A stretch of 64,000 nucleotides of DNA, from the NCBI GenBank assembly GCA_025351355.1, contig JANXWC010000059.1, positions 1-64,000 of the forward strand. The letters run 5' to 3'. This DNA comes from Hyphomicrobiaceae bacterium. Lineage in GTDB: Bacteria > Pseudomonadota > Alphaproteobacteria > Rhizobiales > Hyphomicrobiaceae. The position numbers and the translations under genes were made by a program. The notes beneath the pieces are model-generated. The model saw nothing but the letters and a program-made list of their open reading frames with translations. It made no database searches and had not been told where the DNA came from. Below are positions 13,637-17,631 of the stretch, in pieces (the first letter of the stretch is position 1; the number at the start of each line of letters is the position of its first letter).

Positions 13637-14872
13637 CTATATGGCCAGCATCTTCGCGCAGGCCGCGACGAAGACATGGGCGCCGGTGGCGATGTCGGCA
13701 TCGGAGGTGTTCTCGGTCCAGTGGTGGCTGATGCCACCGATCGAGGGCACGAACAGCATGGCTGCCGGCATGACCTTGGCGAGGATCTGGGCGTCATGGC
13801 CGGCTCCACTGGGGATGCGGTCCGATTTGCCACCGGCATAGGTGGCGGCGGCGGCTTCGATGGCATCCTGGAAACGTGGTTGCATCAACGCCGGCGTGGT
13901 GCCGCGCAGTTTGATGACTTCGATCGGGCAGGGGCCGCGCTCGGTGTGCGCGGCGGCGGTGTCACGCAAGAGTGTTTCGAGGCGCGCGAGCAGCGCTGGA
14001 TCATCATCGCGGAACTGAAACAGGATCTCGGCGCGGCCGGGGATAATGCTGGGCGCGCCGGGGTCAAGGGCAATGCGGCCGGTGGTCCAGACGGTACGCG
14101 GGCCGGCGGCCTTGCGGAAAGCCTCGTCGAGAGCTGTCAGAAGCCTGACGGCGGCAAGACCAGCGTCGCGGCGGATGGCCATGCGGGTGGTGCCGGCATG
14201 GTTCTGGGTGCCGGTGATGATCAGCTTGAATTGCCAGATGCCGACAATTGAGGTGACGACGCCGATCTTGAGGTGGTGGCTTTCGAGCCAATCGCCCTGC
14301 TCGATGTGGGCTTCGAAATAACCGATGTGGCGGCCGCGCTCGACCGCGATGCGGGGGCGGTCGGCATAACCAGCGGCGGCGAGGGCATCGCGCATGCGTC
14401 TGTTATCGGTGCGGTCGATGGCCTGGTCGATTTCGCTTTCCTTGACATCGCCGACGTAGCTGGAGCTCCCGAGCAGGTTGCCGAAGTGGCCTTCTTCATC
14501 GCACCAGGCGGCGACCTCGACGGCGCCATCGAAGTCAGCGACGGGGTTTAGTACACGGGCGGCTTCAAGCGCGTAGACGACGCCCAACGGGCCATCCAGC
14601 CAACCGGCCTGGTTCTGGCTTTCGAGGTGGGAGCCGGCGAGCAATTTGCGGCCGGGTTTTGCGGAGGTGCCGAAGACGTTGCCGATGCCGTCAATAGTTG
14701 GTTGCAATCCGGCTGCCGGCAGGGCTGCGGCAAGCCAATCGAGCGAGCGGATATGTTCTGGCGACAACGAGGGGCGATGCACGCCGGTTTTATACGCGCC
14801 GATTTTGCGCAAGGCGTAGAGATCGGCCAGCACCCGCGCCGGGTCGAAGCCTGCAATAGTCGGTTCCGACAT
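13637..14872 (-). CDS. Zn-dependent M20-type amidohydrolase (N-carbamoyl-amino-acid hydrolase / allantoate amidohydrolase family)
   Basis: This 411-aa enzyme belongs to the M20 group that hydrolyses N-carbamoyl amino acids, beta-ureidopropionate or allantoate. Metal-ligand motifs are GSHLESQ, DGPLGV, CDEEGHFGN (the Glu-Glu pair), HIEQG and the C-terminal SGAGHDAQ with HHWTENT. Substrate-binding segments such as GTQNHAGTTRM are present. It is cytoplasmic and stands alone on the minus strand, convergent with the GNAT gene, so nothing nearby reveals which carbamoyl or ureido compound it uses. Confidence 0.85.
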   Translation of the reverse strand: MSEPTIAGFDPARVLADLYALRKIGAYKTGVHRPSLSPEHIRSLDWLAAALPAAGLQPTIDGIGNVFGTSAKPGRKLLAGSHLESQNQAGWLDGPLGVVYALEAARVLNPVADFDGAVEVAAWCDEEGHFGNLLGSSSYVGDVKESEIDQAIDRTDNRRMRDALAAAGYADRPRIAVERGRHIGYFEAHIEQGDWLESHHLKIGVVTSIVGIWQFKLIITGTQNHAGTTRMAIRRDAGLAAVRLLTALDEAFRKAAGPRTVWTTGRIALDPGAPSIIPGRAEILFQFRDDDPALLARLETLLRDTAAAHTERGPCPIEVIKLRGTTPALMQPRFQDAIEAAAATYAGGKSDRIPSGAGHDAQILAKVMPAAMLFVPSIGGISHHWTENTSDADIATGAHVFVAACAKMLAI

Positions 14873-15014
14873 GATGGACCTTCCAAGGAGTTTGCGGAAG
14901 TTGAGTACCGCGTCGGGCGCAATGAGGGAATGGCGAACCCGAAAAAATATCGCACGGGCGTCACGATTCGCTCGCGTTGGCGCCCAATTGATCCGTCATA
15001 CGCATACTCGAGTG

Positions 15015-15156
15015 CTTGACCCGGATCGAATTTCGCCCCTGATCCGGTCCCCCCAGTGCCGATCTGCCGGGATGCTCTCCGCGGTCCGGGTCAAGCCTCT
15101 CTCCGCACTCCAGTTATGCCGATAGCGCCAGCGTTTCTCGACGCGTGGCGTTTTTT
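15015..15156 (+). ncRNA. Candidate small or leader RNA with alternative stems
   Basis: CTTGACCCGGA (15015-15025) is a perfect inverted copy of TCCGGGTCAAG (15085-15095). Part of the same left arm, CCGGATC (15021-15027), also pairs with GATCCGG (15041-15047), so two mutually exclusive structures are possible. A strong intrinsic terminator follows at 15126-15156. No plus-strand gene lies upstream within 1.4 kb, so the terminator needs another transcript to end. No known RNA family was recognised; an intergenic repeat is the main alternative. Confidence 0.35.
15126..15156 (+). terminator. Intrinsic terminator without an upstream plus-strand gene
   Basis: CGCCAGCG (15126-15133) pairs with CGCGTGGCG (15142-15150) through eight base pairs and one bulged G around an 8-nt loop, followed directly by TTTTTT. 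It lies 179 nt before the histone-like gene. Confidence 0.65.
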
Positions 15157-15334
15157 GTGCGTGGGTTGCAAGCAGATCTCGAACGCTGGAAATCGCGATG
15201 ACTCGCTTGCTGCAGAAGAGCGACAGTAAAACGTGTTAACCTAGAGTTAACCAGACGCGGGCAAGAGTTAATGTGTCAGTCATTCTGATTCGTGAGTGCA
15301 CTGGCTTACTGGGCAACTTGAAAGGAAGACTCCC

Positions 15335-15523
15335 ATGGCGAAGATCGCAAAGACTGTGAAGACCAAGGCGAAGAAGGCTCCTGCCAAGCGTAAGATCAAG
15401 GCTGTTGCCAGCGTGAAGCGTGCGGGTGCTGCCCGTCGCACAAGCGCAAAGGCAAAGACCGCGCGCAAGCCGGCTGCTCGCAAGACCAGCGTCCGCAAGA
15501 GCGTGAAGAGCGTCAAGAGCTGA
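15335..15523 (+). CDS. Histone H1-like Lys/Ala/Arg-rich small protein
   Basis: This 62-aa protein is almost only Lys, Ala, Arg, Val, Ser and Thr (MAKIAKTVKTKAKKAPAKRK, then repeated KAKTARKPAARKTS-type units), resembling the C-terminal tail of histone H1 and the bacterial H1-like or AlgP-type proteins. Such proteins bind DNA or RNA non-specifically by charge. The AAAGGAAG ribosome site 7 nt before the ATG at 15335 fixes the start. A second, smaller gene with the same MAK..KK..APAK style follows 460 nt downstream. No enzymatic function is expected. Confidence 0.75.
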   Translation: MAKIAKTVKTKAKKAPAKRKIKAVASVKRAGAARRTSAKAKTARKPAARKTSVRKSVKSVKS

Positions 15524-15985
15524 ACTGCTCGCCTCTCTTCGAGGGGCAATGAGATATGGCGGGCTCGGGCAGATGCCCGCCAAGGATCACTCGGCCGGGA
15601 CCCGCGTCAGCGTGGTCGCCGGCCGTGAGCATTTCTGGGGCAAGGTCGTGGCCGCGATTTCCCGATCAAATTTATGCATGGGTCGGCTCGGTGATTCGGC
15701 GCATGGCGCCTTGTTTTGATTCGGTTTATTCGAAATTTAGATCGGTTTAGGTCGGAATTTTTCTATTCACTGCAGAGCAATAGGTGAAATACCCGACTCC
15801 CGTTATCATAAAAACTGTCTAATCATCGGATTATGCGAGTAAAAATGTGGATTGATTGCAACACTTTCGAACCATAAACACGAATTCTGAGTTCGAAAGT
15901 ATTTTCGATGTCAACAGGCGAATTAAAATTGTGCATAGTTGACTTGTCCGAAATGATTCGGATGTTTTTGAGAGAGGGAAATCCC
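15524..15985. other. Long leader/intergenic region between two histone-like genes
   Basis: There is no protein gene. A GGCGGGC/GCCCGCC hairpin (15558-15581) lacks a T-tract, so it is not a classical terminator. The right half is visibly AT-rich and contains the ACTTTCGAAC/GTTCGAAAGT repeat listed separately, and probably the promoter of the 29-residue gene. Confidence 0.5.
15863..15900. promoter_or_regulatory. Perfect 10-bp inverted repeat upstream of the 29-residue gene
   Basis: ACTTTCGAAC (15863-15872) and GTTCGAAAGT (15891-15900) are exact inverted copies separated by 18 AT-rich bases, 85 nt before the ATG. The spacing suits either a dimeric regulator site or an RNA hairpin in the leader. 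No T-tract follows, so it is not a terminator. Confidence 0.4.
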
Positions 15986-16075
15986 ATGGCAAAAGCTGCC
16001 GCGAAGAAGAAAGTTGCTGCTAAGAAGGTTGTGAAGAAGGCCCCGGCCAAGAAGGCTGCTGCCAAGCGCCGTTGA
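15986..16075 (+). CDS. 29-residue Lys/Ala micro-protein, histone H1-like
   Basis: A 30-codon gene encodes a peptide of only Met, Ala, Lys, Val, Pro and Arg: MAKAAAKKKVAAKKV, then VKKAPAKKAAAKRR. An AGAGAGGGA ribosome site 7 nt before the ATG and a strong terminator about 90 nt after the stop argue that it is a real expressed gene. It looks like one repeat of the H1-like tail made by the 62-residue gene upstream and should bind nucleic acid. It is short enough to be missed by usual gene callers. Charge-based function is inferred only from composition. Confidence 0.6.
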   Translation: MAKAAAKKKVAAKKVVKKAPAKKAAAKRR

Positions 16076-16166
16076 TTGGTTAGGTCGCGCGCTTCCGCCC
16101 TTTGGTCTCAGCTGGGCACTGGGGACAACGGGCTGCAGCGCTGCACCTGCCGAACGGTACACATTG

Positions 16167-16208
16167 AAACCGGAGTGTCGCATTCGCGACCTCCGGTTTC
16201 TTTGTTTG
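16167..16208 (+). terminator. Intrinsic terminator after the 29-residue gene
   Basis: AAACCGGAG (16167-16175) pairs perfectly with CTCCGGTTT (16191-16199), extended by GTCGC/GCGAC inside with one unpaired T, and is followed by CTTTGTTTG. It closes the small histone-like transcription unit. Confidence 0.8.
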
Positions 16209-16374
16209 TGGGTCCTGTAAATAATACTTACGAATACTGCTGTGTTTGTTTGGGCTTTCATGCTGAAAGCACGCTTCCGGCATGACGGCGCCCCACCATG
16301 CTGGAAGCATGGCTCCGAAATGACCCCGCGCGCGTATACCAGCCTGTAGAGGTCGGGACCTGTGCAGGCTGGCA

Positions 16375-16761
16375 TTATTCGGCGAGATGGCAGACGGCTT
16401 CGATATTGTGGCCGTCGGGGTCGTGCACGAAGGCGCCGAAATAATTTTCATGGTAGTGCGGACGCAGTCCCGGGGCGCCGTTGTCGCTGCCGCCTGCTTT
16501 CATGGCTGCGTCGTAGAAGGCGCGCACGCTCTCGCGATTTTTGGCGGTGAAGGCGAAATGAACGGCACCCTTGATGGGCTTGCCGGTGCCAATCCAAAAC
16601 TGAGGGCGCTTGCCGGCGCCAAACCCGGCGCTGCGATTGCCGCCGGTTTCCTTGGAAGACACTTCAAAAACGAGATCGTAACCGAGTGGCTTCAGAACCT
16701 TGGAGTAAAAGACTTTCGAACGCTCGTAGTCCGAAACCGGCATTCCGACGTGGTCCAACAT
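16375..16761 (-). CDS. VOC (glyoxalase/dioxygenase superfamily) protein
   Basis: This 128-aa single-domain protein of the vicinal-oxygen-chelate fold starts MLDHVGMPVSDYERSKVFY and contains the second beta-alpha-beta half with HFAFTAKNRESVRAFYDAA and the C-terminal FVHDPDGHNIEAVCH. His in LDHVG and Glu in NIEAV are the usual metal-ligand positions. GGAG sits 7 nt before the ATG at 16761. It lies 87 nt downstream of sdhB on the same strand, but no functional link is evident. It could be a glyoxalase, a fosfomycin-resistance-like enzyme or an uncharacterised lyase. Confidence 0.8.
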   Translation of the reverse strand: MLDHVGMPVSDYERSKVFYSKVLKPLGYDLVFEVSSKETGGNRSAGFGAGKRPQFWIGTGKPIKGAVHFAFTAKNRESVRAFYDAAMKAGGSDNGAPGLRPHYHENYFGAFVHDPDGHNIEAVCHLAE

Positions 16762-16848
16762 GAGGTGCTCCAACGGGATCTTGATCGCTGGCGGCAGTCT
16801 ACATGGTGACGTTGGACCGGCAAGCCCGCAAAGCCCGCACGGCTCTAC

Positions 16849-17631
16849 TCACACGCGGCGCTCGACCATCAGCTTCTTGAGTTCGGCGATCGCCTTGGCG
16901 GGGTTGAGGCCTTTCGGGCAGGTTTGGGCGCAATTGAGAATGGTGTGGCAGCGATAGAGGCGAAAAGGGTCTTCGAGGTTGTCGAGGCGATCGCCGGTGC
17001 CTTCATCGCGGCTGTCGATGACCCAGCGATAAGCCTGGAGCAGCGCGGCCGGGCCCAGATAGCGATCGGAATTCCACCAATAGCTCGGGCACGAGGTGGA
17101 GCAGCATGCGCAGAGGATGCACTCGTAGAGGCCGTCGAGCTTTTCGCGATCGGGACGGGCCTGTTTCCACTCGGTCGGCGGGGTGGGCGTACTGGTCTTG
17201 AGCCACGGTTCGATCGAGGCGTGCTGCGCGTAGAAATTGGTGAGGTCCGGCACGAGGTCTTTGACCACCTTCAGGTGCGGCAGCGGGTAGATGTTCACGG
17301 TGCCGGACACGTCATCGATGGCCTTGAGGCAGGCGAGGGTATTGGTGCCGTCGATGTTCATGGCGCAGGATCCGCAGATCCCCTCGCGGCAGGAGCGGCG
17401 GAAGGTCAGCGTGCTGTCGATTTCACCTTTGATCTTGATGAGGGCGTCGAGGACCATGGGGCCGCAGCTGGAACGGTCGACCCAATAGGAGTCGGTACGC
17501 GGATTGGCTGCGTCGTCCGGGTTCCAGCGGTAGATCTTGAACTGTTTCCAGTCGCCTTTGCCCTTCGGGCGCGCATTCCAGGTCTTGCCGGTGGACACTT
17601 TCGAATTGCGAGGGAGGGTGAGCTCAACCAT
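16849..17631 (-). CDS. sdhB: Succinate dehydrogenase iron-sulfur subunit
   Basis: This 260-aa iron-sulfur subunit of complex II passes electrons from the flavin to ubiquinone. The plant-type [2Fe-2S] ligands are in [16 protein letters not shown] with a final Cys in NTLAC. The [4Fe-4S] and [3Fe-4S] ligands are in [16 protein letters not shown] and in [18 protein letters not shown]. The start at 17631 ([12 protein letters not shown]) matches alphaproteobacterial homologues. It lies more than 2 kb downstream of sdhA instead of directly after it; an unknown gene, a vapD-like gene and REP elements intervene. Confidence 0.95.

Follow-up and report, generated by a model that had tools for sequence, protein, structure and literature searches.

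A near-core small gene of the Hyphomicrobiaceae for an H1-tail-like basic protein, with a leader palindrome that carries a predicted GcrA/CcrM site

Hc2 (HctB) of Chlamydia and the BpH1-type proteins of Bordetella and Burkholderia combine Lys/Arg with Ala, Val, Thr and Pro and have no globular domain. Hc2 spans approximately 165-237 amino acids, is built from Lys-rich pentamers and varies in length with the number of repeats (PMC2848022). The C-terminal domains of AlgP and PhaF from Pseudomonas carry KPAA-like repeats with predicted disorder and serve as a DNA-binding tail; KPAA-repeat peptides bind DNA in vitro, and AlgP is found with polyphosphate granules, whose even spacing requires it (PMC9239181). 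The promoters of the GcrA/CcrM regulon in Caulobacter and Brevundimonas combine a sigma70-like promoter with an adjoining YGAKTCK, which is the reported consensus of GcrA targets (PMC7987155). In Caulobacter, GANTC lies between the -35 and -10 elements in one class of promoters regulated with the cell cycle, and timing depends on its position (PMC4287350). The small gene considered here lies in the window, a 64-kb stretch of a 5.2-Mb draft genome (G000), and the features located below by window coordinates are on its plus strand; no paper on this gene was found in the literature searched.

The 29-residue protein and its likeness to H1-like and AlgP-type tails

The gene (MAKAAAKKKVAAKKVVKKAPAKKAAAKRR) occupies a 30-codon frame at exactly 15986-16075 and, as the initial annotation stated, its 29 residues are M, A, K, V, P and R only. 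The strong ribosome-binding site described there is also present: GAGAGAGGGA reads at 15970-15979, approximately 7 nt 5' of the ATG, is kept in congeners, and its pattern has a single match in the genome. The leader is AT-rich, with a GC content of 0.38 against approximately 0.59 in its surroundings. An in-frame ATG further upstream at 15908, which would extend the protein to 55 residues, was rejected as the start, as it lies 5' of the predicted start site of the mRNA and indels shift the frame of the leader in one congener. Downstream, a terminator-like stem-loop (GAAACCGGAG..CTCCGGTTTC, followed by TTTGTTT) is predicted at 16166-16200 and its stem is kept in two congeners; since a simple terminator scan did not list this stem, its earlier description as an excellent terminator is carried by the fold.

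The composition of the protein bears out the resemblance to a histone-H1-like tail that had been proposed for it. It shares with the Hc2 and BpH1-type proteins the combination of basic residues with Ala/Val/Thr/Pro and the lack of a globular domain; its family likewise varies in length through repeat number, and the longest members score against the Pfam family HC2. By contrast, this protein has 29 residues, is alphaproteobacterial, and is encoded behind a GcrA-type promoter site by a gene with leader and 3' hairpins. Searches of Pfam and NCBIfam gave no match for the proteins of the window, and HC2 (PF07382, gathering cut-off 40 bits) matched neither the 29-aa protein nor the 62-aa product of a neighbouring basic gene. 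Among the relatives scanned only a 192-aa member passes this cut-off (66.5 bits), with members of 157, 116, 66 and 49 aa below it. The protein also falls well short of the Hc2 length range, as does the family median of 46 aa. Because it has no match and is too short, the 29-aa protein cannot be filed as HC2, a family for which DNA and RNA binding is part of the membership criterion; a mode of action like that of an H1 tail may nevertheless apply, which is a different claim and a weaker one. The NCBIfam H1-like models NF038052 and NF038053 also gave no match for it, and the longest relative reached 46.7 of 135 and 40.9 of 80 bits, respectively, below the curated cut-offs.

The likeness to AlgP and PhaF lies in the KPAA-like repeats and the predicted disorder, and the difference in the absence of their N-terminal helical domain: no domain precedes the basic tract, K, R, A and P begin at residue 2, and the whole protein is tail. 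The family gene would thus encode an almost acid-free, disordered polycation of K, R, A, P, T and V, for which binding to DNA, and perhaps also to RNA or polyphosphate, would be expected through charge alone, as in H1-like tails. Its composition, its near lack of acidic residues, the score of the longest member against HC2 and the published DNA binding of KPAA peptides point by analogy to a role in coating polyanions. We regard it as unlikely that polyphosphate or some other polyanion of the cell, and not DNA, is the main target of the protein, for example in spacing granules on the nucleoid in the manner of AlgP; the association with polyphosphate granules of AlgP, whose KPAA-repeat tail has a similar composition (PMC9239181), speaks for such a role, but there is no AlgP-like N-terminal domain here, and the length of most family members seems insufficient for tethering one body to another.

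Conservation within the genus and across the family

Comparison within the genus found the locus retained in three of four congeners. The orthologues have 25, 29 or 30 residues, all indels are multiples of three, and the start, ribosome site, composition and reading frame are retained in each. The initial annotation had let the gene depend on conservation of the start, ribosome site and Lys/Ala composition in relatives, and at the level of sequence all of these are conserved. Differences between the window and the three relatives number 0/0/4, 0/1/8 and 3/4/8 at codon positions 1/2/3, and the substitutions within the genus are mostly synonymous. The flanking blocks are conserved as well as the frame itself, from TGTCAACA to the ATG and for approximately 65 nt past the stop codon. 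No orthologue was seen in the fourth congener (G001), where the locus near the VOC gene is short (L067, 1974 bases), so that the region may simply be absent from the assembly. This genome has a different 22-aa ORF (MAKKAAAKKAAKPAKKAAKKKK, L021 1496-1564) beside an acylphosphatase-like ORF and without the leader described below.

Because protein similarity cannot trace a sequence of this kind, the neighbouring VOC (glyoxalase-type) gene was taken as a synteny anchor. This revealed a small Lys/Ala/Pro-rich ORF with the same leader at the same place in many genera; the relatives that could be named are metagenome-assembled genomes of the Hyphomicrobiaceae and Hyphomicrobium, within the order Hyphomicrobiales/Rhizobiales to which the initial annotation had pointed, and the family compared here is accordingly taken to be the Hyphomicrobiaceae. 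At the VOC-gene loci named outside the Hyphomicrobiaceae no comparable ORF was found, and a Lys-rich ORF at one of them (L139) was dismissed as unrelated.

A covariance model of the 58-nt upstream leader (R1) was then built from 28 aligned leaders (alignment A8), and since it contains no coding sequence, it provides an independent test of the ORF. R1 matches 90 of 103 Hyphomicrobiaceae genomes (73 of the 76 of good quality) in 22 of 25 genera; roughly one third of these matches arise by construction, as the model-building leaders come from the same genomes, and the remainder do not. With few exceptions, each of the 90 genomes has a single strong match. In the window's own genome the sole match is the promoter and 5' leader block at 15909-15966 (60.1 bits, E 6.4e-13), and a protein search of the same genome returned the 29-aa protein itself and no second copy. 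No strong match was obtained outside the family, the best values being 1.3e-4 in the search of the order and 3.8e-4 in that of the class Alphaproteobacteria; values near 1e-4 are about the chance level for several hundred genomes.

When 89 R1 matches were read out, a basic Lys/Arg/Ala/Pro-rich ORF was found to start 10-39 nt past the leader in all 88 that were readable. At the remaining match (L239) the frame reaches the end of the contig, and the sequence visibly proceeds as a basic ORF. The family ORFs range from 24 to 192 aa through gain or loss of repeats, with a median of 46 and a single exception (L248), an ORF of 16 aa that may be a broken or misread frame. Among their 5021 residues are 6 acidic ones and 1 that is aromatic or cysteine. 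Genome G034 carries two near-identical 116-aa copies (L014 and L023), each with its own leader, possibly as an effect of duplication, assembly or contamination.

Since a basic ORF follows in every readable R1 match, the gene is, on this sequence comparison, near-core and normally single-copy in the Hyphomicrobiaceae. Lys/Ala-rich frames are simple sequence and arise easily, but a chance low-complexity ORF with no function is very improbable indeed, given that leader and composition are kept across the family, indels stay in frame and substitutions are mostly synonymous. The comparisons confirm a real gene, above chance expectation, and uphold the suggestion that a frame of this size tends to escape annotation with size cut-offs.

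The predicted promoter, the leader palindrome and the predicted GcrA/CcrM site

Alignment of the 82 distinct leaders reveals a conserved sigma70-like pattern, TCAACA-N17-CATnnT, upstream of the gene. In the window the -35-like element TCAACA lies at 15911-15916 (TCAACA in 67 of 82 leaders, TCTACA in 9), and the -10-like element CATAGT follows 17 nt later at 15934-15939 (second base A and sixth base T in 76 of 82). A simple promoter scan of the window did not report this pair, because its match to the consensus is weak; the conserved pattern makes a sigma70 promoter plausible. An alternative placement, with TTGACT (15939-15944) as the -35 element and GANTC in the spacer, was ruled out, as TTGACT is not kept outside the genus. 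A start approximately 7 bases past the -10-like hexamer would coincide with the first base of a predicted stem-loop, GTCCGAA-ATGA-TTCGGAT, at 15946-15963, which would thus form the 5' end of the mRNA. The palindromic leader and its GcrA/CcrM site, as well as a long hairpin between the stop codon and the terminator, had gone unremarked in the initial annotation.

The palindrome contains TGATTCG at 15954-15960, a GANTC (CcrM) site that fits the GcrA consensus and is located in the promoter region. The consensus is found on the coding strand of 81 of the 82 leaders, and GANTC in the hairpin part of all 82; the variants, one TGAGTCG and three CGATTCG, depart from the window's form at degenerate positions and retain GANTC. 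One leader (L014) lacks the usual site and has GAATC elsewhere in the same hairpin, in reverse orientation. As R1 was built from leaders that nearly all have TGATTCG, its matches favor this motif. A gcrA gene is present in the window's genome (PF07750 at 172 bits, cut-off 26.9) at G000:C219:70947-71432, on the same contig as the small gene and approximately 55 kb from it. The GcrA model also scored above its cut-off in the control genome of Sulfolobus acidocaldarius, which is unexpected for an alphaproteobacterial regulator.

The locus therefore resembles the GcrA/CcrM promoters of Caulobacter and Brevundimonas in having YGAKTCK next to a sigma70-like promoter in a genome with gcrA. It differs from them in that the predicted site belongs to a palindrome and lies a short way past the predicted start, with GANTC approximately 9-13 nt from the start; this position is unlike that in the Caulobacter class with GANTC between the -35 and -10 elements and counts against the assignment. 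No small basic protein was found among the GcrA targets in the accessible parts of the literature on such promoters. GANTC is rarer in the 64-kb window than its composition predicts (95 against 236 expected), and CTNAG is equally rare (87), so this depletion is no proof of CcrM activity. Because the palindrome holds a CcrM site within the GcrA consensus, we propose that the weak predicted promoter just upstream of it would be controlled by GcrA, and that expression would be tied to chromosome replication via GcrA and CcrM.

In alignment A8, 92.1% of the cells of the leader stem are paired against 87.9% after shuffling and 18-53% in slid registers, a contrast that owes much to invariant pairs, with two-sided changes and G-U pairs also present. 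The near-perfect dyad containing GANTC, together with a weak fold z-score for the leader region of the window (-1.51), could instead mean that the palindrome serves a dimeric regulator as its DNA operator, or is a methylation site only, and is not an RNA hairpin. Only the function of the leader is at issue here; the gene stands under either reading. We consider it possible but doubtful, since G-U is tolerated at five of the seven leader pairs, which fits RNA and not a DNA dyad, and the palindrome coincides with the expected beginning of the mRNA; both roles could also hold at once. As an RNA hairpin, the leader stem-loop may stabilize the message or offer a binding site for protein or RNA.

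The 3' hairpin, the neighbouring basic gene and the proposed role

Immediately past the stop codon the sequence is predicted to fold into a structured hairpin at 16076-16153, whose core is the same in three congeners; the region that takes in both this hairpin and the terminator (16076-16215) has a fold z-score of -5.57. Its apical loop contains UGGGC at 16113-16117. An apical-loop UGGGC occurs within the first 75 nt of the 3'UTR in 59 of 88 family members, against 0-2 of 88 in each of 20 dinucleotide shuffles, and is the commonest loop pentamer when all are tallied. In other genera the sequence of the stem differs and the loop retains UGGGC. In a gap-free alignment (A7) 80.5% of the stem is paired against 62.9% when shuffled, with covariation of 0.549 against 0.261, and slid registers give at most 60.4% and 0.268. 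Among 38 distinct held-out hairpins, 75.6% pairing compares with 62.3% for shuffled sequences, a value attained in 0 of 1000 shuffles; because the sequences are related, these numbers are not probabilities. The UGGGC loop is missing in several genera. In one of them, g7 (L071, L074, L075 and L084), a CGCGC stem and a shared loop near CAGUYCCCCUCGU are found, and UGGGC has seemingly been replaced.

Rfam covariance models gave no match in 14500-17000 of the window up to E 1, and for ten relatives they returned nothing beyond weak hits that fell far short of the curated cut-offs. A DNA search with the 3'UTR block found homologues within the genus only, because the stem diverges, and the loop motif surfaced only after synteny anchoring. 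A model of the 3' hairpin (R2), too weak to speak for or against further copies, ranked the window's hairpin best in its genome (E 0.09; next 9.4). The strong fold, a loop invariant in 59 of 88 members while the stem covaries, and conservation within the genus at least equal to that of the ORF would suit a small regulatory RNA whose seed loop is UGGGC as the main product, with the short ORF of minor importance. Such an RNA nevertheless appears improbable to us as the main product: all 88 readable matches have the basic ORF and only 59 the UGGGC hairpin, the ORF maintains composition and frame despite lengths of 24-192 aa, and no base-pairing target was identified. In a protein-coding message the order would be the leader stem-loop, a strong ribosome site, the UGGGC-loop hairpin and lastly the terminator, and the UGGGC hairpin, like the leader stem-loop, may act in stability or binding.

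A second basic ORF of 62 aa, with a VKRAGAARR core, lies at 15335-15523 and is conserved next to the 29-aa gene both in the window's genus and in another one. Upstream of it is a box, TTAA-N7-TTAA (15236-15250), the only one in the 64-kb window, which stands at -99 here and 98-99 nt from the ATG across five genomes; ChIP-seq in Hyphomonas neptunium, a budding bacterium, gave TTAA-N7-TTAAC as the consensus for CtrA (PMC7200025). The box is thus a predicted CtrA site at promoter distance with conserved spacing. A TGATTCG that fits YGAKTCK (15286-15292, at -49) precedes the ATG by 48-50 nt in five genomes. A hairpin read from the sequence 3' of the gene (15558-15581) has the loop CGGGCA here and UGGGCA in three congeners. 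The two adjoining small basic genes carry predicted sites of two cell-cycle master regulators. The initial annotation grouped them as a small family; the 62-aa gene is indeed also basic and has a GANTC-type site, but common descent with the 29-aa gene cannot be traced and it is confined to two genera, the window's and one other, so the two need not be paralogues. An 89-aa basic ORF in genus g20 (L026, G023), with VKRAGPARRK and with GATTCG upstream, may be a distant relative of the 62-aa protein.

Taken together, these results are best explained, and we think rather probably, by a family gene for a disordered polycation that binds polyanions and whose expression is linked to GcrA and CcrM. The product, if translated as the ribosome site and frame suggest, is most likely a disordered polycation coating DNA or some other polyanion in the manner of the tails of Hc2 or AlgP, and expressed in phase with the cell cycle. 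A bolder and distinctly unlikely version is a cell-cycle-timed chromatin protein consisting of a tail only, in which replication-dependent methylation of the palindrome sets the timing and the UGGGC hairpin gives the peptide or a partner a means of regulating the peptide's mRNA.

It is easy to take small basic proteins for low-complexity noise. Here the noncoding anatomy, and not protein similarity, revealed a near-universal family gene behind a cell-cycle-type site, and this offers a general route to minimal H1-like genes beyond the reach of protein alignment. The tail-only, H1-like protein and the family-wide regulatory anatomy of its gene are undescribed in the sources searched, and the 3' hairpin is a new conserved RNA structure. 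Whether replication-dependent methylation is coupled to a histone-tail-like protein can be tested directly on this gene. The Hyphomicrobiaceae include stalked budding bacteria; if the bolder version is true, a tail-only chromatin protein could aid the packing of the chromosome for its passage through the narrow hypha into the bud.
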